A stretch of DNA of 58,965 bases, taken from a virus. Numbering within the stretch: position 1 is the stretch's first letter; each line of letters starts with the position of its first letter. The stretch lies in the IMG/VR virus record IMGVR_UViG_3300005265_000005, positions 1 through 58,965 of that record; one strand, given 5' to 3'. This document shows, piece after piece, positions 3,044 through 46,631 of this stretch. Under the pieces are notes generated by a model that was given only the letters and a program-made list of their open reading frames with translations, did not search any database and was not told where the DNA came from. The position numbers and the translations under genes were made by a program.

Positions 3044-3063
3044 TATTTCCTCCAATTATTTTA

Positions 3064-3119
3064 GGGCTTCCTCATCAGTGCCAGGAGCCCATCCCTGACA
3101 GACCCCGCCGGAGCGGGGT
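3064..3119 (-). ncRNA. Structured leader RNA, copy B
   Basis: Same architecture as the copy at 1548-1606: terminal hairpin ACCCCGC-TCCG-GCGGGGT (a UNCG-like tetraloop), the shared core with one T/C difference, and closing stem GGGCT (3090-3086) / AGCCC (3068-3064). It lies between the 110-aa gene and the 85-aa gene it precedes. Confidence 0.7.
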
Positions 3120-3125
3120 TTCGGA

Positions 3126-3458
3126 TTAGCTATATTTCAAAATCACAGAAATTGACGCGTTAATTCCCCGTCTGTTTTTCCAGACGAAATTAATAGCGTC
3201 ATTGTCATTCCCAATTAGTGTGCGCTCCTGATCACACCAGCCGGGACCTTCGCTGAATATATACCATTCGTTTATTTTCTTCGCTGCATTCCAACAGCGA
3301 AGAATAGAGGTATGTCCCCCATTGCTCATTGAGATGCTTGGGTCATCATAGATAATGAATCTTGAAATATCTTCTTCTCCACCTTCGTATTCTGAATATT
3401 CGCTTCCGAAATGCTCAATGAAATATTGAGCATCCTTTTTAGTTTTAATTTTTTTCAT
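3126..3458 (-). CDS. Hypothetical protein (110 aa)
   Basis: No family recognised. It begins MKKIKTK, the same seven residues found at an internal Met (near 4080) of the next gene upstream, suggesting shared or duplicated N-terminal sequence. AAAGGAG precedes the ATG. Confidence 0.72.
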   Translation of the reverse strand: MKKIKTKKDAQYFIEHFGSEYSEYEGGEEDISRFIIYDDPSISMSNGGHTSILRCWNAAKKINEWYIFSEGPGWCDQERTLIGNDNDAINFVWKNRRGINASISVILKYS

Positions 3459-5501: not shown

Positions 5502-5567
5502 TGTTATAGTTTTCTTTAACAAGTGTTATAGTTTTCTTTAACAAGTGTTATATTTTTGAGTAACACG
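5502..5567 (+). repeat. Three 22-bp tandem repeats upstream of repL (iteron/operator candidate)
   Basis: Units at 5502-5523, 5524-5545 and 5546-5567 have an exact 22-bp period. The first two are identical (TGTTATAGTTTTCTTTAACA+AG); the third is degenerate but keeps TGTTATA and TAACA. Each unit is an imperfect inverted repeat (TGTTA...TAACA), as expected for a dimeric DNA-binding protein. They end 30 bp before the repL promoter, suiting either an origin iteron array or a RepL autorepression operator. Confidence 0.8.
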
Positions 5568-8711: not shown

Positions 8712-10263
8712 ATTAGAAATCCAACCCTACAAAGTAGCTAAAAATATTTATCAAGGAGTATTATCTAAAACTGGCAGTAAAGTTGAGGCAAAAAAGCAAA
8801 TGGAAATATTTCTTAAGGGTGTGGTAAATGAGCCATTAAAATACTATGTGCCTACGGGAGCAAATGAAAAATACATTAAGACCGTAGCAAATTCCACGAA
8901 AGATAGCAACATTCCTATTGTCTTATGCACCTATGCGAATGGAACAGGCAAAACAAGTAGCACAATTCATATAATACTTAATACAATTTATGGACCTCAG
9001 AATGGCTGGTTTGACTACGAATTGTTTAGGAATTTTCCTTTTCCCAGAAGGATATGGTATATATCAAATGCAGAAGCACTAAAAAACAGAGTAATCCCCG
9101 AATTTATAAGATTGTTAAAATCAAAAGAAGGAACTTACAAAACTTACAAAGACAATTATCCTTATATTGCACGAATAGAGTTTAAGAATGGATGGACGAT
9201 ATTTTTCAAGACATTTGACCAAGACCCTGGAACATTTGAGAGTTTACGATTAGGAATAATTGTGCCTGACGAACCGATGCCTGAGCCACTCTGGAGGGCT
9301 TGCGAAGGCAGAATGACGCAGGGGTGTATATCATTACTACCAATGACACCATTAGAATGTCCACCCTACATATTAGATGAAATTGCAAAAGGAGCGGATA
9401 GGGGAGATAAGGGATATTTTCATATAAAAGCGGATATTTATTCTGCCTGTAAAGAAAGGGGTATTAGAGGATTTTTAGATGCAAGGACTGTTGATGAAAC
9501 TGTAGCGAGATATACAGAAGAAGAAAAACAGGCAAGGGCTTATGGTGAATTTATGTATTTTAGTAGCAGAATATATCCTGATTTAGATGCGAAAAAACAC
9601 TTTGTTAATCCAGATGATTATCCATTGAAATCAAATTATTTATACTTTCACATAATAGACCCTCACGATGGACGACCGACGGCAGAGATATGGGGCTGTC
9701 TAACACCAGAGGGTAGAAGAATAATATTTGCCGAGCGACCAGACGACCAAAGTATGCAATTTTGGGAAATGAAGGGTAAGAGTGAAACACCATTAGAGCA
9801 TAAAGAACAAATAAAATTCAAAGAAAAACAATTTGAAGGAATATTTGCCAATCCGACCAGAATAATGGACAGGCATTGGGGATTACAGACAAGAGGGGAG
9901 ACAAAAAAGACTGCATTTCAGAGTTATGCTAATATAGGTTTAATATTCAAGAAAAGTTATTCGGCTGTAAATGAAGTAGAATACGGACACTGGAAAGTAA
10001 GGGAGTGTCTAAAAAGTCTGCCAGACGGGAAGCCAGGGTTAGTGATATGGAACACTTGTTATCATACTTGGCAAGGACTAACACATTCAATATACAAAAG
10101 ACTAACAGGCAAAAGTTCTGGGGATAAAATACAAGGCAAGGTTGTTCCGAAATATAAGGATTTTGATGATGTTGTGAGATATTTCTGTTGCGAAAATGTA
10201 AAAATTACAGATAGGGTAGTTAACGAGCATATCAGCCACAACGATATTTACGATTACATATAA
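8704..10263 (+). CDS. terL: Terminase large subunit
   Basis: The 519-residue packaging motor has a Walker A variant ANGTGKT at residues ~78-84, Walker B GIIVPDE at ~184-190 with the catalytic Glu, a coupling segment LLPMTP at ~211, and a C-terminal RNase H-like nuclease opening with IIDPHDGRPTA around residues 317-328. Length and order are normal for Terminase_6-type subunits. GGGGG precedes the ATG and the start lies within the end of the previous gene. The packaging strategy (cos, pac or direct repeat) cannot be read from it alone. Confidence 0.94.
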   Translation: MFKLEIQPYKVAKNIYQGVLSKTGSKVEAKKQMEIFLKGVVNEPLKYYVPTGANEKYIKTVANSTKDSNIPIVLCTYANGTGKTSSTIHIILNTIYGPQNGWFDYELFRNFPFPRRIWYISNAEALKNRVIPEFIRLLKSKEGTYKTYKDNYPYIARIEFKNGWTIFFKTFDQDPGTFESLRLGIIVPDEPMPEPLWRACEGRMTQGCISLLPMTPLECPPYILDEIAKGADRGDKGYFHIKADIYSACKERGIRGFLDARTVDETVARYTEEEKQARAYGEFMYFSSRIYPDLDAKKHFVNPDDYPLKSNYLYFHIIDPHDGRPTAEIWGCLTPEGRRIIFAERPDDQSMQFWEMKGKSETPLEHKEQIKFKEKQFEGIFANPTRIMDRHWGLQTRGETKKTAFQSYANIGLIFKKSYSAVNEVEYGHWKVRECLKSLPDGKPGLVIWNTCYHTWQGLTHSIYKRLTGKSSGDKIQGKVVPKYKDFDDVVRYFCCENVKITDRVVNEHISHNDIYDYI

Positions 10264-29209: not shown

Positions 29210-30196
29210 ATGGCTGATACAATAGCTGGAACAATTAGGGAATGGGAATTAAGACGAAAGGAAAGACGAAAACAGCAATATGCACCCTATTTTAAAGGCA
29301 TACAGATGTTAATTGAGGGAGAGAAAAAGAAAAAGCAGGATTTGGCAACCTATAATGCTATAAATGAACAAATAAAATTGTGGTATCCCGACTGGATACC
29401 GCCTATGACTTTTGAAGAAGCAAGTAAAATTGGAATGAATCTTTATCAACAGAAAGTAAAAGCATACCAAGAAGCAGAACAATTAAAAACAGAAGCAGAA
29501 TCTTTGGGAATTCCAACAGAAACAATTACAGCAGAAGGAGTTTCAGAACAAGTTCCATTCGGAGAATTAGCATTACAAATTAAACAAAAACCAGCAGAAT
29601 TAAAAGCTGTTGAAAAAGAAAAAATCATTGAAGAAAAGAATAAATTTGTTAAAGATGTAAGAGCAAAAAAATATACGATAGATGAGATTTGGGATAAAGG
29701 AAAACAATTAGGATTAACAACGGATTATATTAAACAACTTTCAACCGATGCTATAGATTACACAGATGAGAAGGAAAAAGAAAAGGAAGAAAAAGAAAAA
29801 ATAACGCAAGCAGAGAGAACAAGAAAAAAAACAGATTTAAAATCATATCTTAATTTATTGGATAAGGACAGGAAAGTAATAACCCACAATCTAATTGAAG
29901 ATTATTTAGAAATGGTAGATAAAAATCCTGATTTATATCCCAATCTTAAAAAAATGATAAATGACTTTGTTCAAAAGGTTGATTTGCCCCCACTAACAGA
30001 TTTACAAGCAATTGCACAACAGATTAAAGAAAGAACGGGAGAAACGACAACATTTATGTTGGCAGATACAGAAGCGGCAAGAAGGCAGAAAATATTTAAA
30101 GCAATAGAAGGTTATTTAGATAAAATTTATGGAAAACAATTAGAACCCAGAGATTATTTTGAAGGTTTAGAAACTGAAGATTGGTGGAATCAATGA
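29210..30196 (+). CDS. Coiled-coil internal virion protein candidate (328 aa)
   Basis: Almost entirely helical with long Lys/Glu/Gln coiled-coil segments (EWELRRKERRKQQY, AYQEAEQLKTEAESLG, EKEKEEKEKITQAERTRKK). AAGGGGGC precedes the ATG. Its TGA overlaps the ATG of the giant protein (ATGA), implying stoichiometric coupling to it. Confidence 0.58.
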   Translation: MADTIAGTIREWELRRKERRKQQYAPYFKGIQMLIEGEKKKKQDLATYNAINEQIKLWYPDWIPPMTFEEASKIGMNLYQQKVKAYQEAEQLKTEAESLGIPTETITAEGVSEQVPFGELALQIKQKPAELKAVEKEKIIEEKNKFVKDVRAKKYTIDEIWDKGKQLGLTTDYIKQLSTDAIDYTDEKEKEKEEKEKITQAERTRKKTDLKSYLNLLDKDRKVITHNLIEDYLEMVDKNPDLYPNLKKMINDFVQKVDLPPLTDLQAIAQQIKERTGETTTFMLADTEAARRQKIFKAIEGYLDKIYGKQLEPRDYFEGLETEDWWNQ

Positions 30197-33100
30197 GATG
30201 GCAAGAAGTAATTAAAGACCCACGATATATTAATGCTTTACCAGAGCAACAAAAACTAATAAAGCAAGATTGGTTTAAGAAAAATATAGAAACCGACCCA
30301 AGATATAAACCAGAATTAAGAGATAAATTATGGTATAGAGTATTTAATGAACCAGAAATAAGATCTGATGTTACCATAGCAAAATCTGAATTGGCAAAAC
30401 TACCTTTAAAATCATTAGAAATAAGTCATCCAAAGCCAGGAGTAATACATAAAGAAGAATTAACTCCATATGAAATCAAACAAAGACAAGGAGAAAATCA
30501 AAAATTATTAAATGAATGGTATGAAAAATATGGCAAAGCATTAACAAAAGAAGAATTAGCAAATATGGGTATTGAGATAACAAAACAAGTTGTAAACTCT
30601 TACAAACCAATGAAAACGGGAGAAAAATTAACAAAACTGCCAGAACATAAAATAGGATTATATCAAGCTCCGCCAGAACCAAAACCAACAATATTCCAAA
30701 AAATAATTAAACCTTTTATAAAAAAACCAAAAGAAATAAGACAAAGAACATCTAATATTTATAGCATTAAAAAGATGCTTGATAAGGAATACTATAAATC
30801 ATTGGCAAAGCAATTAAAAGTTGATGAAGATTATGTAAAAGAAAATATTGGAAGTCTTTCAAGGCAATTTCAAATACCTGTTGAATCATTAAGTTATGAA
30901 CAAATAGAAAAAAATTATGACTTAATTACACAACAACTTAATCTTCGCAATATGCCTACTAATAAAGAAATGATAGGCATAATGTTTAAAGCAGGTATTA
31001 CTGCTGGTTTAATTACCAACCCTTTAGCAACCCTATTAAGTGTTAGTGAATTTATGGCTCTATCAGAAGCCGAAAGCTTTATTATATCAAAAATAAAGAA
31101 AGAACCCTATAAAATATTACAAATGAAAGGATTGTCAGAATTATTACCCAAAGAGGCAACCCAAGTAACAAAAGATGTAGTTGATATTATAGATATTTTA
31201 TGGAAAGCAAAAGCAATAAGAACAGCATACAAAAAAGCACCAGAATTAATTGAAAAATTTACTAAAGACATAACAATAAAATATAATTTTCCCCGAAAGA
31301 TATATATTGAACCAAATAAAATTCGTTCAATGTTTATTAGGGGTAAAAAAATTAGTCCACAAGAAGCAAGTTTAGTAAAAGAATTAGGATTAACAAGTAA
31401 AGAATATAAACTTGCCCTAAAACAAGGAATATCAATTGAAGTTCCTATTGAAAAAGTTGTCAAAATAGCTGACAAACCATATTGGGCTAAAGTCAAAAGT
31501 TTATTTAATGTAAAACCTAAAACAGAAACTAAAATATTTAGACCTGAAAAAGTAGTTGCATATCCTAAAGCAAGATTACCAGAAAAAGCAATTTCAATAG
31601 AAAAAGAACCAACTCCATTTGCAGAAAAACCCACATTAGAAGCAGGAGTAGAATTAAAGCCAAAATTAAAGGGAACAGAACTAACAAACAAATTCAAAGC
31701 AATTTCAACCCGATTAAGAGTATTAGATAACATAATAAAGCAAGGGAATATATCAAAAGCACAAGGAATATTAGACAGATACCACACAGCCAAAGCAGAC
31801 GGATATTTTGATGATTTACCAGAAGACAAAATAAAAGAAATAGAAAACAAAGTTTCAGTATTAGAAAATAAATTAGGCAAGAAATTAGAGCCTACAGCGA
31901 AAGAAGGAATTGGCAAAATTCCACAAACAGAAGCAGAATTAATAAAAAAAGGATATAAACTTTATACTGAATACGATGTGGGAAAAGGACATTACAAAAT
32001 ATATAAAAAAGGACATATTTTTGCGACAGTAAATCCTGAAGACCAAATTGGTGCAATAAAAAAGAAAGCAATTGAATCTATAGATAAAGCCAAAGAATCT
32101 TTTATAAATAAATTTAGGGGTTCACACTTACAAGATGAATTTATTAATTCAATCGTAAACAATTATACAGATATAAGAGAAATAGGAACGAAAAAACAAG
32201 CATTAAGAGAAATTGAAAATCAGATTGATTGGTTTATATATGAATCTACCAAATATGCAACTAAAAAACCAGAAGGAACACCTGAAAACTATAGTTGGTT
32301 TACAGAAAAAGGAGATATACCAAAAATTTTTGATTCAGCAAAAGATGCTGCTGCTATTAGTTTTAAACAAGGATTAATAAAAAGGGTTCAAGAAACATTT
32401 GACAAATATTTTAAAGAACCAAAATTAGAGACTACAGCGAAAGAAAAGATTGAGCCTACTACTATCACCACCGAAGAGGTAAAAGTTGCACCACGACCAG
32501 AACGGGTAGATTTAAAAGCCGACTTAGACAAAAGAATGGATAGTATAGTTGCCAAATTAGACGAAAAGAGCGGAGAATTTAATTTATCCGAAGCCAAGAA
32601 AGAAATAACAGATTTAGAAACGAATAAAGCAAAATTAACAGAAGGATTAAGCGAAACAGATAAAGCGGGAATAGATAGATTTATAGAAGATGCGAAAGCA
32701 GAATGGAGTAAAACCAAAGAAGCAGAAATTGAAAAGCCGAAACTTAAAACTGATATGGATAAGGCAGTTGCGGAAACAGAAAAAATATTTGATAAAATAA
32801 ACAAAGAATATTATATGCCTGCGGGAGAACTATCGGCAGGAACAGAACATGTTAGAGAAACCAAAATTAAAACAGCAATTACAAGGATAGCCAAAAAATA
32901 TAAAGTTGATAGAGACGAATTAGAGAATAAAGTATTATGGAAATATGCTGGGAAAAGACTTGAAAAAGAAAGAAAACCGATGACTGAAGCAGAGTTAAAA
33001 GAAAGGGGAATAGAACTGAAGCCTTCCGTTAAAAAAGAAGTAGAAAATAAAAATATAATATTAAAACCAGATAATACTCCATATGCATCATTGAAAGATG

Positions 33101-36100
33101 CCAATGTTAAAAGAAAAGAATTAGCAGATTTGACTGGTGATATATATATAATAATTAAATACAAAAACGGATTTGCAATTAAACATCGTCCAAGAGATAT
33201 AAATTGGGAAAAAGGTTTTAACAAATACTATAAGAAGGACGAATTTCCAGAAGATAAAGAACTTTGGGAAGACTTCAAACAATTTTCAAAAGAAGAATAT
33301 AAGAAAAATCCTTATATAGATGAACATTATGAAGTTTGGTTAAGGACAAGTGAGTTGGTAAGAAAAAAAGATTTGGAAGAATATGTAAAGCCTGCTATCA
33401 AAAAAGAGGAAACAGAAAAAGAAGTATGGAAAATAACAAGAGATGAGTATATTGAAAAAAGATACAAACCAAAATTAAAATCGGCAATAGCGGGGAGTAG
33501 AACTCAATTAGGTAAACTTCACAAATATGAAGTAGAAAAAGCACTCAAAGAAGGTAAAGAGGTTTATAAGGGCTGGGAAAAGGATTACCCTGACTTAGCC
33601 GAGAAGTATAAAGCAAAAGAGAAACCATCCGTTGCACCGAAGGAAATCCCCAAAGAATTAGAGCCATTGACAAAAGAGGCAAGAAAGTATAAGAGTGCAG
33701 AGGAATGGAAAAGGGCATTTTATAATAAACTTGAAGAAAACAAAATGTCAATTCAGGGATGGGATTGGAATAAACCAACGGGTGTTATAAGATATTTAGT
33801 TGGCTTTCCATTTGAAAAGGGAGCTATAAAAACTAAGTATGAAGTTACAATTGATAAACCTGTAAGCCAAAAAAGTTTTAAATTATCAATAAGAAAAAAA
33901 GGAAAGTTTTTGTCTGATTTTGATTTGAAAAATATAAACTTGGATTTAAAAGATTATTTTGACAAACAACTTTTTGAAGGAAAGGAAGCTGTTTATTCAA
34001 GTTTAGAAGGTGCTTTAAATAAAGTTAAAAAAATATTTCCCTCAGCAAAAGAAAAACCATTAGAACTTTTTAACATTACAAATCCCACCGACTTCTACAA
34101 CCAAGCAATTAAGGAAGCAAAGCCAGAAAAAGTTGTTGAGAAACCGAAGTCAGAGGTTGCACCAAAGGAAATAGCGGAAGGATTAGAGACATTAAAAGAA
34201 GAGGCAAAGAAATATAAAACTGCAGATGAATTTGTAGAAGCACAAGCAATTAAAAAGAAACTTATTTCACAGGGAATAAAAGTTAATTCAGATGATACGG
34301 TTACACTTTACCACGCAACATCGCCAGAAAATATGGCAAAGATAAATAAGGAAGGACTATTTCGTGGCAGAGGAACTGCAACTGGTGGTATGACAGGATT
34401 AGATTTGAAACCTTCTGTATTTTTAGGAACAAGCAAAAAATGGGTTAAAGATACTTGGGGTGTTGGTAAAGAAATTATGGAAATCAAAGTTCCAGTTAAA
34501 GATATAAGACAACCAGCACAAAACACATTAGAGGTTTATATTGAGGGCAATTTAAAGCGTGATAAAGATGGAATTTGGAGACCAACGCAAAAACCAAGAA
34601 GCACATTTTACGATAGACTTGCTAAAAGAGATGTAAATCAGCAACAACTCAAAGACATTTGGCAACAGGCACAGAAAGAAAAACCAAAAGAAGTTGCCGT
34701 AAAACCAAAACTGGAGATTACACCAAAAGAAATAATAAAAGAGCCAGAAACCGAGCCAAAAGAAACCCTGAAAGGAACTCCAAAGGAATTAGAGGCATTA
34801 AAAGAAAAAGCAAAGAAGGTAAATGAGATAAATTTTAGCAGATTTGTAAAAACTTATGAATTTCAAAAAAGAATGAAATCCGCACAAGATTTACAAAAGG
34901 AAGCAAAAGGATGGACGCCAGGCGGAAGGATTACAATAAATTCCGATGGTAGCATAACTGTTTATCACGGAACAAGTATAGCAAGTGCGGATAATATATT
35001 AAAAACAGGAAAAATTGCAGGTTATATTACTTTTTCTCATTCAAAAACAAGAACATTACAGGGAGATGAAGGGGCTGAATGGTATGCAAAAGTTAAAAGA
35101 AAAAATGGTAAAGTTATAAAATTGTCAGTTGACCCAAGAGATGTTTCAATAAACGGAGCTGGTGAAATTGATGTTGAAGATGGACTAATCAGACAACCAA
35201 ACGGAATATGGACATCACCAAAAAGAAAAAATATATCCAATATTCTTAAAACAGAAAAAGACATAAAATCTTTCTGGCAACAAGCACAGAAAGAAAAACC
35301 AAAAGAAATACCGAAAGAATTAGAATTAGAAAATGATATTGAAAAAGCAATTGATAGAATTGAAGAATTAGATATTAGGAAAAAGAAATATCAAGACGAA
35401 GTGGACAGAATACAGAAGATTCAACCAGTTGGTCAACCATATCCATCTTTTGAAAAAGCGTTAGACAATGCAATTAAAATATCAAAACAACAATCAGATA
35501 TATGGAATAAGATAAGAAATAGGGTTGTTAAGGGAACAGGCAGAACATTATGGCAAATTGCAATTCAACAGAAATTACCGGTTAATAAATATGGCACTGA
35601 AAAGCATTTAGATTTTGGTGGCAAAGAGATTAGAAAAGCAATTAAATCCTTCTGGCAACAGACACAGAAAGAAAAACCAATTGGCAAGGTTGGAGAAATA
35701 ACTGACTACGAAAAACTATCAAAATTAGGTAAGCAAGTTTACAGATTGGCAGTTTTATCAAAAACGGGTGGAGAATTTATAAATAATTTAAAAGCAAAAA
35801 AAATAGCGATAGAGACTGCAAAAAAAGAAGTAGGCACTAAAAGTTTAGGAACTTGGCAAGAAAAAATAAAAAAAATAGAGTTAGCAAAAGCACATAAAAT
35901 TACAAAAGCAAAGGAAGAAATAGAAGTAGAGAAAAGAGGAAAATATAAAGATGTTACAGAAAAAATTCTGGGGGAAAAAACAAAAATTTACTCTTTATCA
36001 GAAGCACACGACATAATAGCAAGGCATAACGCACAACTCCGAAAAGGTCAAACGCCTGCATTATCTAACGAGCAAGTAGAGAACATACTAATAAATGCCT

Positions 36101-38811
36101 ACAGAAAAGCAAACAAAATACCAACTACTTATGAATTTACAAAAGACATAAATAAAATATACTATAACAGGAAAACAGGCAAAAGTGATTTAAGTTTACA
36201 AGAGAGAAGGAAAAAGTATAAAGAATATTTTAAATCAGAAATAGGTAAAATTCCCAAAGAGGGAGATAAAATAAGTATTGATAAAACTTTTGTTATAGAG
36301 AACACGCAAGGAAAGAAAATCAAAATAGCAAAGGGTGAGGAATATATGATATATCCGCATCCCACAGATGCAGCAAAGTCAATTATGCAAGATGGTAATC
36401 AAGTAACTATTTGGGAGGGTGATTTAGAAGATATTGCAAAAAACATTACAATTTTAAGAGAAGGAAAAATTAAGGCGGGTGGTAAGATACATAAATACAT
36501 ATTTGAAACAGAACCTAAACAATATCAAATTATAGATAAGCCAAATAAAAGAGGACAAAATATAGAAGAAATGTTTGTTGGAATACCTTTTTATAAAGCA
36601 TTAGATATTCCTATTGTGATAAGAGGAACAAAATTTAAATTTTTGGATGCATTGGGAAGTGAAATAAAAAGATATTATGGATTAACAAAAGAGACAAGAA
36701 GAGAATTAGTAAAATTAAGTGGATATATTGAATTGAACAAAGAAAATATATCAAAATATTTAGCAAAAGAATTTCCTATTGAGCCAGAAGAAGCAGAGCA
36801 ATTAACAAAACATCAAGAACAACCATTGAAATATAAAATTTCAAATAAATTAAAACCATATGCAAAAAAGGTTGAAACTTTATTAAATTTAACTAAAAAA
36901 GAAATGGCAAAAAGAAAATTGTTAAATGAGTTTTTTCCACAATCATTTATCAAAAGGGCTAATAAAGAGATAATAAAAGAACAAGAAATTATATCAAATT
37001 TAGTTAGAGAAGACGCAATAACAAGGCATCAAAATAAAATAAAAGAATTAAAAGAATATGTAGAATTTTTAAAAGATTTAAGATATGTTCCTCATTTGTA
37101 TATTGCAGAACAAGAGATAGAAAGAATGGTCTTAAAATTGCTTCCTGAAAATAGATTGACCGCAAGATTTAGGTCATCTGTTTCAAAATTGAAGGGAAGA
37201 AAAATTGATACAATTGATAAAGCCGAATCATTGGGCTTATTGCCAGAAAAAGATATTAGAATGTTGTTAGCATCTCATTTAGAGTATGTGTTTAGAAAAT
37301 GTGCTATATACGATACAATAGAAAATTTAAAAAAGAATAAATCCGTAATAATGAAGGAAAAAGAAGCGCCATCTAATTGGGAAAGAACTGCAATATTACA
37401 GTTAAAAGATTATAGGATACATCCTTTATTATTAAGGGCAATAGAAGATTTTGCATTAAATACAAATATAGGATTAATTGGTAAAGGTTATGATGCTGTT
37501 AATTATTTAGGTAAAGCGCTTGTGTTTTATAATCCATTAATATTGCCTCTTTGGGATGTATTTCAAGGAGTAGGAACAGGAGGTATTAACCCCTTTAGAC
37601 CGATTCATACTGCTAATATGTTATCACAAGCTTGGAAAACGGTAGTAAATAAAACGGGATTATATAAAAAATTAATAGAAGGAGGATTGTATAAAACACC
37701 CAGAGTTGGTCATTATCCGACCTCCATAGAATCATCAATGAAATTATTAATTAATCAAATGGATAGTAAATATCCAAAATGGAAGAAGGGATTAGAAAAA
37801 GCATTAAATCAAAAAGTAGATTGGAAAACATTTTCAACCAAATTAATTTATCCTACTTTATATTGGCAAAACTGGAGAGTAACTTGGTTTTTAGACCAAG
37901 TGTTAAGGACTGGAAGTGTTTTACATTTATTAAGTATAGGAATGCCATTGCCAGATGCTATTGATTATGCCAATACATTACACGCAAATTATGATTTATT
38001 AACAAGAAGAAGTAAAAAATGGATTAATAGAGCATTTTTAGTTGGAACATATAAAGCAAATATGTTATTTAATGCACCATTATTCTTGGCTAAAAGAACT
38101 TCTAATTTATTTAAAAAATTTGCGACAGGAGAAAGAAAAAAAATAACCATAGATGAAAAAGAAAGTTTAAAATCTATATTTAGAATTGCCATTATGATTG
38201 CTTCTATGATTGCATTTGCAAGGTGGAGAGGATATAGATTGCGAGAAGATTATAGATTAGTAAAACCTTTAAAAGAACCCATAATAACCAAAGAGGGAAA
38301 AATTAAATATGAAAGAGTTATTACTTTGCCAGGACCGTTTTTTGAATGGTTTAAAGTAGTAGGTAGAATCAAACAACAAAAAGCAAGAGCATTATATATG
38401 TATTTGGCAAAAGTTCCACAAATAGCCTGGGGTCTAATGGAAAACAGAAGGTGGCAAGGAGACCCATATTATGATGAGGGTGCAGCTACGCCAAAACAAA
38501 GACGACAATTATTATATAATGTTTTAAGAGATTATATTGCTCCATTAGACCGAATAGAAATGATGACTGATGATGAAGTAGATGCAATGGATAATATAAT
38601 GAGTTTATTAGGAATGGCAACCTATAAACGAGGTGGTATAGGTAGAAGCACGATATATAAAATAAGAAATACTTATAGGAAATTAAATAAATATCTTAAA
38701 AAACCAAATGTATCAGAAACAGATAAAGAAAATGCCTATATTGAAGCACAGAAAAAAATTGATAAATACTTAAAAGAATTAGAAGAATACAATAAACAAT
38801 TTAAGGAATAA
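30193..38811 (+). CDS. Giant polyvalent virion/ejection protein with two ART-like domains (~2,872 aa)
   Basis: The start at 30193 overlaps the previous stop. Recognisable parts: a hydrophobic stretch near 265-300; a polyvalent-type motif KLHKYEVEKALKEGKEV...DYPDL near 1100; ART-like domain 1 near 1360-1500 (LYHATSPENMAKINKEGLF, VFLGTSKKWV, LEVYIEGNL); ART-like domain 2 near 1570-1700 (TVYHGTSIASADNILKTGK, EIDVEDGLIRQPNGIW). Both are bracketed by repeated linkers (KEAKKYKTADEFVEA before, DIWQQAQKEKPKE after), and a third copy of the trailing linker ends near 1830. The C-terminal ~430 residues are helical and partly hydrophobic. This fits injected multidomain polyvalent proteins that modify host targets at entry. 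ART assignment is by motif only. Confidence 0.75.
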   Translation: MRWQEVIKDPRYINALPEQQKLIKQDWFKKNIETDPRYKPELRDKLWYRVFNEPEIRSDVTIAKSELAKLPLKSLEISHPKPGVIHKEELTPYEIKQRQGENQKLLNEWYEKYGKALTKEELANMGIEITKQVVNSYKPMKTGEKLTKLPEHKIGLYQAPPEPKPTIFQKIIKPFIKKPKEIRQRTSNIYSIKKMLDKEYYKSLAKQLKVDEDYVKENIGSLSRQFQIPVESLSYEQIEKNYDLITQQLNLRNMPTNKEMIGIMFKAGITAGLITNPLATLLSVSEFMALSEAESFIISKIKKEPYKILQMKGLSELLPKEATQVTKDVVDIIDILWKAKAIRTAYKKAPELIEKFTKDITIKYNFPRKIYIEPNKIRSMFIRGKKISPQEASLVKELGLTSKEYKLALKQGISIEVPIEKVVKIADKPYWAKVKSLFNVKPKTETKIFRPEKVVAYPKARLPEKAISIEKEPTPFAEKPTLEAGVELKPKLKGTELTNKFKAISTRLRVLDNIIKQGNISKAQGILDRYHTAKADGYFDDLPEDKIKEIENKVSVLENKLGKKLEPTAKEGIGKIPQTEAELIKKGYKLYTEYDVGKGHYKIYKKGHIFATVNPEDQIGAIKKKAIESIDKAKESFINKFRGSHLQDEFINSIVNNYTDIREIGTKKQALREIENQIDWFIYESTKYATKKPEGTPENYSWFTEKGDIPKIFDSAKDAAAISFKQGLIKRVQETFDKYFKEPKLETTAKEKIEPTTITTEEVKVAPRPERVDLKADLDKRMDSIVAKLDEKSGEFNLSEAKKEITDLETNKAKLTEGLSETDKAGIDRFIEDAKAEWSKTKEAEIEKPKLKTDMDKAVAETEKIFDKINKEYYMPAGELSAGTEHVRETKIKTAITRIAKKYKVDRDELENKVLWKYAGKRLEKERKPMTEAELKERGIELKPSVKKEVENKNIILKPDNTPYASLKDANVKRKELADLTGDIYIIIKYKNGFAIKHRPRDINWEKGFNKYYKKDEFPEDKELWEDFKQFSKEEYKKNPYIDEHYEVWLRTSELVRKKDLEEYVKPAIKKEETEKEVWKITRDEYIEKRYKPKLKSAIAGSRTQLGKLHKYEVEKALKEGKEVYKGWEKDYPDLAEKYKAKEKPSVAPKEIPKELEPLTKEARKYKSAEEWKRAFYNKLEENKMSIQGWDWNKPTGVIRYLVGFPFEKGAIKTKYEVTIDKPVSQKSFKLSIRKKGKFLSDFDLKNINLDLKDYFDKQLFEGKEAVYSSLEGALNKVKKIFPSAKEKPLELFNITNPTDFYNQAIKEAKPEKVVEKPKSEVAPKEIAEGLETLKEEAKKYKTADEFVEAQAIKKKLISQGIKVNSDDTVTLYHATSPENMAKINKEGLFRGRGTATGGMTGLDLKPSVFLGTSKKWVKDTWGVGKEIMEIKVPVKDIRQPAQNTLEVYIEGNLKRDKDGIWRPTQKPRSTFYDRLAKRDVNQQQLKDIWQQAQKEKPKEVAVKPKLEITPKEIIKEPETEPKETLKGTPKELEALKEKAKKVNEINFSRFVKTYEFQKRMKSAQDLQKEAKGWTPGGRITINSDGSITVYHGTSIASADNILKTGKIAGYITFSHSKTRTLQGDEGAEWYAKVKRKNGKVIKLSVDPRDVSINGAGEIDVEDGLIRQPNGIWTSPKRKNISNILKTEKDIKSFWQQAQKEKPKEIPKELELENDIEKAIDRIEELDIRKKKYQDEVDRIQKIQPVGQPYPSFEKALDNAIKISKQQSDIWNKIRNRVVKGTGRTLWQIAIQQKLPVNKYGTEKHLDFGGKEIRKAIKSFWQQTQKEKPIGKVGEITDYEKLSKLGKQVYRLAVLSKTGGEFINNLKAKKIAIETAKKEVGTKSLGTWQEKIKKIELAKAHKITKAKEEIEVEKRGKYKDVTEKILGEKTKIYSLSEAHDIIARHNAQLRKGQTPALSNEQVENILINAYRKANKIPTTYEFTKDINKIYYNRKTGKSDLSLQERRKKYKEYFKSEIGKIPKEGDKISIDKTFVIENTQGKKIKIAKGEEYMIYPHPTDAAKSIMQDGNQVTIWEGDLEDIAKNITILREGKIKAGGKIHKYIFETEPKQYQIIDKPNKRGQNIEEMFVGIPFYKALDIPIVIRGTKFKFLDALGSEIKRYYGLTKETRRELVKLSGYIELNKENISKYLAKEFPIEPEEAEQLTKHQEQPLKYKISNKLKPYAKKVETLLNLTKKEMAKRKLLNEFFPQSFIKRANKEIIKEQEIISNLVREDAITRHQNKIKELKEYVEFLKDLRYVPHLYIAEQEIERMVLKLLPENRLTARFRSSVSKLKGRKIDTIDKAESLGLLPEKDIRMLLASHLEYVFRKCAIYDTIENLKKNKSVIMKEKEAPSNWERTAILQLKDYRIHPLLLRAIEDFALNTNIGLIGKGYDAVNYLGKALVFYNPLILPLWDVFQGVGTGGINPFRPIHTANMLSQAWKTVVNKTGLYKKLIEGGLYKTPRVGHYPTSIESSMKLLINQMDSKYPKWKKGLEKALNQKVDWKTFSTKLIYPTLYWQNWRVTWFLDQVLRTGSVLHLLSIGMPLPDAIDYANTLHANYDLLTRRSKKWINRAFLVGTYKANMLFNAPLFLAKRTSNLFKKFATGERKKITIDEKESLKSIFRIAIMIASMIAFARWRGYRLREDYRLVKPLKEPIITKEGKIKYERVITLPGPFFEWFKVVGRIKQQKARALYMYLAKVPQIAWGLMENRRWQGDPYYDEGAATPKQRRQLLYNVLRDYIAPLDRIEMMTDDEVDAMDNIMSLLGMATYKRGGIGRSTIYKIRNTYRKLNKYLKKPNVSETDKENAYIEAQKKIDKYLKELEEYNKQFKE

Positions 38812-44777: not shown

Positions 44778-44849
44778 TGCGGGTGGTAGGCAAGGTGTCT
44801 AACTGGTTTCATATGCCAGACAAGGTCGGTTCAATCCCGATGCCCGCTA
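44778..44849 (+). tRNA. tRNA with CAT anticodon (Met or lysidine-type Ile), atypical
   Basis: Fits a 72-nt cloverleaf: D stem TAGG/TCTA, anticodon stem CTGGT/GCCAG, anticodon CAT at 44810-44812, 5-nt variable loop, T stem GTCGG/CCGAT with standard T loop TTCAATC. Oddities: base 8 is G rather than T, the first acceptor pair is T-T, and no CCA is encoded. The 1-72 mismatch is a feature of initiator tRNAs. Read as initiator/elongator Met or Ile(CAU); cannot be separated here. Confidence 0.68.
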
Positions 44850-45647: not shown

Positions 45648-45896
45648 TTAATATTCCATTTTCTCATAATCAAAATCAAATGAAATCTGAAGCGGTAAAT
45701 CTGTCTCAAGACCATCAAACAAATCATAAAATTTATCTCTTATTTCTTCGGGGATTAAGAATCTACCCTCATAAACGGCATATCCACTTTTGTCTTTTCT
45801 GTCAAAAACCTCTACTCTTCCACCCCTATATTGTGAAAATTTCATATTCATAATTGCTTCTTCTGTTATGCTATATCTGTATCTTTTGTGTTTCAT
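45648..45896 (-). CDS. Hypothetical protein (82 aa)
   Basis: The start at 45896 (MKHKRYRYSI) overlaps the previous gene's TGA (ATGA). Last gene of the leftward operon. Alpha/beta, basic N-terminus and acidic C-terminus (FDFDYEKMEY). No family recognised. Confidence 0.65.
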   Translation of the reverse strand: MKHKRYRYSITEEAIMNMKFSQYRGGRVEVFDRKDKSGYAVYEGRFLIPEEIRDKFYDLFDGLETDLPLQISFDFDYEKMEY

Positions 45897-46180
45897 TTTA
45901 TTTTTACCCAAATAGTATCTGGTTTTGTTATTTTAATTCTTTTTTCATATTTAATTTTTCCTTCAAGAGCATCTATTTGTCCTTGTTTATATTTACTTGC
46001 TAATAATGAAAAAGTAATAATAATTAACAATACATAAAAAATGACTAAAACAACCGTAAAATGCTTTTCACCATTTCTTTCAGGAAAAATTTTTGCATGA
46101 GGAAACAATTTATTAAGAAGTAATATAAATAGAAAAATGAAAAACAAACTACTTATAATTGCATAATACATTTCTAACAT
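45893..46180 (-). CDS. Two-pass membrane protein (95 aa)
   Basis: Hydrophobic segments at residues ~5-24 and ~41-61, then KYKQGQIDALEGKIKYEKRIK, a C-terminal signature I associate with small phage membrane proteins. AAAGGAG precedes the ATG. Function unknown. Confidence 0.68.
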   Translation of the reverse strand: MLEMYYAIISSLFFIFLFILLLNKLFPHAKIFPERNGEKHFTVVLVIFYVLLIIITFSLLASKYKQGQIDALEGKIKYEKRIKITKPDTIWVKIK

Positions 46181-46205: not shown

Positions 46206-46289
46206 TTATAGTAAATATTCTTGAGCTAATCGTTTGTTTGCCATCTTTACATATTCTTCTTTTATTTCAATTCCAATAAAGTTTCTGGT
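46206..46289 (-). pseudogene. C-terminal remnant of a DNA methyltransferase
   Basis: The leftward frame RNFIGIEIKEEYVKMANKRL followed by AQEYLL and a stop is the C-terminal end of N6/N4 DNA methyltransferases (the RxFIGIEI-x-EEYxxxAxxRL motif of PF01555-type enzymes). A stop codon two codons upstream and the adjoining CRISPR-like repeat show that the rest of the gene is gone. About 27 codons remain, with no start or SD. Confidence 0.68.
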
Positions 46290-46325
46290 TTAATTCCCTC
46301 ATTCCATTAAAACAAGGATTGAAAC
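46288..46325 (+). CRISPR. Solitary CRISPR-repeat-like unit (38 bp)
   Basis: On the + strand the unit opens GTTTAATTCCCTCATTCC and ends TTAAAACAAGGATTGAAAC. A GTTT start, an AAGGATTGAAAC end whose last eight bases (ATTGAAAC) match the usual crRNA 5' tag, and partially inverted termini (GTTTAATTCC vs GGATTGAAAC) are the marks of CRISPR repeats. Only one copy is seen; 46326-46370 could serve as a spacer-like tail. No cas gene is present. It may be a mini-CRISPR or RNA anti-CRISPR. Confidence 0.6.
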
Positions 46326-46370
46326 AATTCTCTTCTACGACCGTTAGATAAAATAAAACCCTGAACGAGC

Positions 46371-46631
46371 TCAATCTACTATTGATGCAAAATCATCTAT
46401 GGATATATCACATTCATAATCAAGAAAATTATTAAGTTTGACAGCAAAATAATAGCCTTTCCAAGCCGTTTCATATCCTTCACCATCAATAAATTCACAT
46501 ATTTGCAGAAATTCATTTGCCATCCATGCAGTCACAAACATAATTACATCATCACTACCGTCTTCCTTAATATGTATTTCTGGTTTATTTTTTTTAATAA
46601 ACTTCAATAATTCTTTTAAATTTTTTGTCAT
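46371..46631 (-). CDS. Hypothetical acidic protein (86 aa)
   Basis: GAGGAGAT precedes the ATG. Acidic C-terminus, Trp/Tyr-rich centre (GYETAWKGYYFAVKLNNF). No family recognised. It lies next to the CRISPR-like unit; small acidic phage proteins are common among anti-defence factors, but that is only context. Confidence 0.65.
   Translation of the reverse strand: MTKNLKELLKFIKKNKPEIHIKEDGSDDVIMFVTAWMANEFLQICEFIDGEGYETAWKGYYFAVKLNNFLDYECDISIDDFASIVD

Follow-up and report, generated by a model that had tools for sequence, protein, structure and literature searches.

A solitary 3' portion of a type I-B CRISPR repeat in a viral genome: possible RNA decoy or recombination relic

What is a single CRISPR-repeat-like sequence doing in a virus? 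The DNA analysed here (the "window") is the whole of virus record IMGVR_UViG_3300005265_000005, 58,965 bases long, with a low G+C content (32%) and with portal, capsid and replication genes. A first-pass annotation singled out a 38-base unit in it, GTTTAATTCCCTCATTCCATTAAAACAAGGATTGAAAC at positions 46288–46325, as a solitary CRISPR repeat and a candidate RNA anti-CRISPR. This sequence occurs only once in the window, and dinucleotide shuffles contain zero copies of it when up to three mismatches are allowed. It is intergenic and lies, as had been observed at first pass, among leftward genes; both neighbours are small minus-strand genes of unknown function, one of 95 amino acids (45893–46180) and one of 86 amino acids with a good ribosome site (46371–46631). 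The window has several other features, which are recorded here in their own right: a type II hammerhead ribozyme between two leftward genes (3061–3126, minus strand; 61.3 bits, cut-off 37), a perfect 22-bp tandem duplication at 5502–5545 (TGTTATAGTTTTCTTTAACAAG), an open frame of 2876 amino acids with zero Pfam matches (30181–38811, plus strand), and two predicted plus-strand tRNAs, a tRNA-Ala (TGC) at 910–985 that is also above the Rfam cut-off and a tRNA-Met (CAT) at 44778–44849 that is below it.

The 3' core and the repeats of true arrays

To judge by its sequence, the 3' part of the unit is certainly the 3' end of a CRISPR repeat. The core at 46301–46325 (plus strand), ATTCCATTAAAACAAGGATTGAAAC, is identical to the 3' part of the 37-nt repeats found in true arrays of many phyla. 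These 25 nt are the longest exact match to array stretches, with 16 non-viral and two viral loci among the matches listed; the unit's last 22 bases have exact counterparts in prokaryote contigs, in 115 stretches or more, and many of these stretches are long regular arrays. The 37-nt repeats of these arrays consist of a 15-nt 5' part that varies by organism and a shared end, TCCATTAAAACAAGGATTGAAAC; the latter is the conserved 3' end that marks the 37-nt type I-B repeat family, and it is present in the window unit. Beside arrays of the core's family, L020 and L108 have the type I-B genes for Cas7b/Csh2 and Cas8b/Csh1, L020 has Cas3 and Cas5b in addition, and Cas3 and Cas5b are found in L016 and L022, respectively. 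The whole unit aligns to the Rfam family CRISPR-DR7 (RF01320) with 31.5 bits (E 1.3e-4 for 301 bases), which does not reach the gathering cut-off of 37 bits, whereas true arrays score 43–53 bits.

Chance resemblance was considered and is ruled out by the shuffles, by a reversed-pattern control (zero matches for the reversed core pattern versus many for the real one) and by a probe-length control, in which 20-mer and 22-mer probes returned the same 16 stretches of viral contigs; because the shorter probe adds no viral match, the chance background is about nil. The first-pass annotation had allowed that arrays might share only the last ~12 bases, or that the segment might be ordinary coding or terminator sequence. 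In fact 22–25 bases are common to arrays, and the core is neither of these. The annotation's reading of a 38-bp CRISPR repeat is confirmed for the 3' end, not for a complete 38-bp repeat.

The unit is also alone. Its last 24 bases occur once in the window, where no CRISPR-like direct-repeat family was found, which bears out the earlier remark that there is no array, and neither a second repeat nor a defence gene was found near it. The companion remark that there is no cas gene holds for the ten window proteins tested, none of which matched a defence or cas model. The best reading of the unit is a 5'-truncated, solitary type I-B repeat.

Several searches bear on the origin of the window. The 38-mer gave weak matches only (E 1 or worse) to phage and plasmid records, and a text search with a 17-nt core string returned nothing. 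A 28-mer (CTCATTCC...) was matched once, with two mismatches in the 28-mer part, among 399 genomes, all of L069's phylum. Host assignment through array spacers, in which 1410 stretches following repeats were compared with the window, yielded nothing longer than 17 nt outside the repeat itself. Relatives were found neither in viral contigs by metallophosphatase or capsid nor among phage records by portal, capsid or exonuclease, near-identical records possibly being omitted from both sets. The replication protein hints at a Bacteroidota host, but members of the Bacteroidota use Shine-Dalgarno sites little, and 23 of the 32 window genes checked have Shine-Dalgarno-like sites, so such a host is unlikely.

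The 5' stretch and the methyltransferase junction

The left flank of the unit, at 46206–46286 on the minus strand, is on sequence grounds clearly the truncated C-terminus of an N6_N4_Mtase homologue (RNFIGIEIKEEYVKMANKRLAQEYLL*), a relic of an N6/N4 DNA methyltransferase with in-frame stops just upstream; it resembles phage methyltransferases. The tail fragment (26–40 amino acids) scores 17.6–24.0 bits against N6_N4_Mtase (PF01555) and does not reach the curated cut-off of 26.7. The methyltransferase homology gives way to the repeat homology over a few bases, and the 5' stretch of the unit (46288–46300) can be read either as the 5' end of a repeat with one inserted base (plus strand) or as the methyltransferase codons E-L-N (minus strand). 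As a repeat, the window's 15 5' bases resemble known array 5' halves no better than shuffles do (p=0.70), a gapped comparison of the 5' half with array halves likewise does not set it above shuffles (101 of 500), and the first 13 bases fit a position profile of array halves with p=0.39 when no gap is allowed and p=0.045 when one inserted base is. A complete 38-bp repeat was rejected as unsupported ungapped and weak with one gap. As codons, E-L-N from 46288–46296, joined through a one-base frameshift, takes the PF01555 score to 22.9 bits from 17.6, still under the curated cut-off. This gain of 5.3 bits, for which the frameshift carries no cost, is comparable in its weakness to the gapped reading as a repeat. 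Both readings of GTTTAATTC, as repeat 5' end and as codons, are thus weak, and because it is also readable as E-L-N the "GTTT start", which the first-pass annotation took for a hallmark of a repeat, is not established as part of one. The first 13 bases adjoin the relic methyltransferase tail and may be part of it. Under either reading the 38-base unit is not a clean repeat, and it pinpoints a recombination junction to a few bases.

An assembly chimera could give so sharp a junction, but leftward small genes of the same kind, with strong ribosome sites, lie on both sides of it; this, or a chance resemblance (excluded by the shuffles and controls above), is in our view a highly improbable account of the locus. 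The junction also suits a functionless relic, in which illegitimate recombination would have put part of a host array or of an older full solitary repeat beside the methyltransferase tail, with loss of the 5' half of the repeat and of most of the methyltransferase, and which would not yet have decayed. We consider this somewhat less than an even chance. It is favoured by the meeting of the two homologies, by the incompleteness of the repeat, by its antisense position and by promoter-like sites at chance level (below). Against it stand the exactness of the core, which has zero mismatches, and the frequent, mostly co-directional solitary copies of the core in viruses. The intact core may, however, mean merely that the event was recent, because the non-working methyltransferase tail is about equally undecayed.

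For homologous recombination 25 bp counts as short, which speaks against a role at the DNA level, namely that the short identity permits phage recombination with, or insertion into, host arrays. Such a role seems to us extremely unlikely, although CRISPR-repeat-like sequences are reported, in work cited in PMC10651486, to mediate viral integration into arrays.

Copies of the core in other viruses

Thirty stretches of viral contigs matched a degenerate pattern of the core, and removal of four near-duplicates left 26 distinct ones. Solitary repeats of the core's family recur in viruses: a second copy within 150 nt is absent in 20 of the 26 stretches, a few of which are near contig ends. The flanking genes include those for a tail tube protein and an ERF recombinase, and the carriers are therefore phages. 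The upstream gene, called by a simple ORF caller, is co-directional with the repeat in 18 of the 23 stretches where this could be called (p=0.011). The window core is antisense to both neighbours, an arrangement otherwise seen, among the 26, only in L118 and L146. The copies vary in completeness; L121 is identical over all 37 nt to an array repeat of the sequenced genome L003, and an array-like 5' half is absent in about nine of the viral copies. The window copy is to be grouped with the more fragmentary of them. The exact core together with the frequent and mostly co-directional solitary viral copies suggests maintenance of the class by selection. The earlier idea of an RNA anti-CRISPR fits this class, which recurs in solitary form in viruses, but it is unproven for the window copy, which is incomplete and antisense, adjoins a decayed methyltransferase gene and has promoter-like sites at chance level.

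Three pairs of viral loci have further peculiarities. The related phages of L130 (424–559) and L138 (reverse, ~9680–9840) have, downstream of a good promoter-like TTGACA...TATATT, a near-identical cas-free stretch in which a DR7-type repeat precedes the CRISPR-repeat-like hairpins ACTCCGTAAGGAGACGAAAAC and CCCCGTAAGGGGACATGATTGAAAC, all within a ATTGAAAC-ended inverted repeat; the DR7-type repeat alone reaches an Rfam cut-off (39.4 bits), and the stretch is a candidate RNA anti-CRISPR against several subtypes. One viral contig of 117,770 bases (IMGVR_UViG_3300009528_000013) holds two separate two-repeat mini-arrays, L129 and L132, whose repeats have the 3' core in common and differ in the 5' half. 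The related viral contigs of L120 and L127 have the core within an inverted repeat, CCCGTTCCCGGA...TCCGGGAACGGG.

A possible rightward decoy RNA and its known counterparts

Promoter-like sites around the unit are at chance level (10 found, 9.0 expected). One on the plus strand at 46130–46159 scores 10/12; for comparison, the selection rule for Racrs in PMC10651486 is a promoter no more than 250 bp upstream. A terminator-like site was not found around the unit. Predicted folding gives a weak plus-strand hairpin at 46299–46322 (UCA.UCC / GGA.UGA, 10-nt loop, -4.5 kcal/mol; z -2.3 for the 28-mer and -0.9 for the 38-mer). Judging from the repeat type and the type I-B handle length in PMC4326828, ATTGAAAC at 46318–46325 would be the 8-nt 5' handle of a crRNA after Cas6 cutting, and 45 spacer-like bases (46326–46370) follow it. 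A minimal Haloferax type I-B crRNA consists of a 34-nt spacer behind a 7-nt 5' handle and can do without a 3' handle (PMC4326828), and an RNA from ATTGAAAC at 46318 to 46370 would satisfy this size.

Together with the bases that follow, the repeat might form a one-spacer mini-CRISPR, a guide against a rival virus that uses the host's type I-B proteins. The sufficiency of one handle plus 34 nt agrees with this, as does the existence of virus-borne mini-arrays against related viruses (PMC6858448, PMC11656645), but no second repeat is present, and 46326–46370, which the first-pass annotation had proposed to compare with other phages, matched no viral contig in two pattern scans. A spacer with a viral target was rejected on these scans, and we regard the mini-CRISPR as very unlikely.

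Our best explanation, a tentative one to which we give about the same weight as to the functionless relic, is that the locus carries, in solitary form, two-thirds of a type I-B repeat, counted from its 3' end, and that RNA from it, if transcribed rightward, could act as a Racr-like decoy. Recombination would have fused a single 3' repeat piece to the C-terminal end of a defunct methyltransferase gene. The rightward RNA would consist of the conserved repeat end, including the ATTGAAAC handle, followed by at least 45 arbitrary bases. Host Cas6b could bind or cut this RNA, Cas5, Cas7 and Cas8 could assemble on the handle and on the stretch downstream of it, and the resulting complexes, having no phage target, would compete with those of host crRNAs, giving an effect like that of an RNA anti-CRISPR. 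In type I-F, according to PMC10651486, RNA of a solitary repeat ties up Cas6f and Cas7f, and interference is reduced by solitary repeats and even by a non-targeting crRNA. From this precedent and the minimal type I-B crRNA size we infer that a rightward transcript could act as a decoy crRNA; its transcription, its binding by Cas6b without the canonical 5' half, and inhibition would all be parts of that inference.

It is also conceivable, though doubtful, that viruses carry solitary repeats, the window unit among them, that have been pared down to the Cas6b site and handle in the 3' part of a type I-B repeat common to many phyla, the host-specific 5' half being dropped, and so give broad-range decoy crRNAs. 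If partial repeats do work, a class of RNA anti-CRISPRs escapes the present search rules, which require a minimum of 90% of the repeat, and a repeat end that differs as little between phyla as that of type I-B would offer a natural target of broad range. With the 26 viral stretches, this idea is testable in laboratory type I-B systems.

How does the unit compare with known systems? Virus-borne mini-CRISPR arrays (PMC6858448) likewise lack cas genes and have spacer-like bases after a repeat. The viral mini-CRISPR definition is at least two repeats round a spacer with a viral protospacer; the window has one repeat and, by the two patterns, no protospacer. With the type I-B repeats of CRISPR-DR7 the unit shares 25 nt of the 3' end, the orientation and the handle; its 5' half, unlike theirs, is non-canonical and has one extra base, and by the Rfam cut-off it is not a member. 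The phage solitary repeat units or Racrs of Camara-Wilpert et al. 2023 (PMC10651486) are like it single, intergenic, virus-borne and without a neighbouring array; the tested ones include types I-C, I-E, I-F and V-A, and the main text does not mention type I-B. Unlike them, the window copy is antisense to its neighbours, with promoter-like sites at chance level, and is incomplete. The SRUFinder rule of that paper asks for at least 90% coverage of and identity to a known repeat, a bit score of at least 41.1, an intergenic position and no further repeat within 100 bp. The unit is intergenic with no near repeat, and its 24-nt exact match scores 48.1 bits (by blastn-short on one 59-kb window and not by SRUFinder's own run), but only 24–25 of 37 nt (65–68%) are exact, and the coverage rule excludes it from the solitary repeat units. 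Despite these rules of membership, it may work like an RNA anti-CRISPR.
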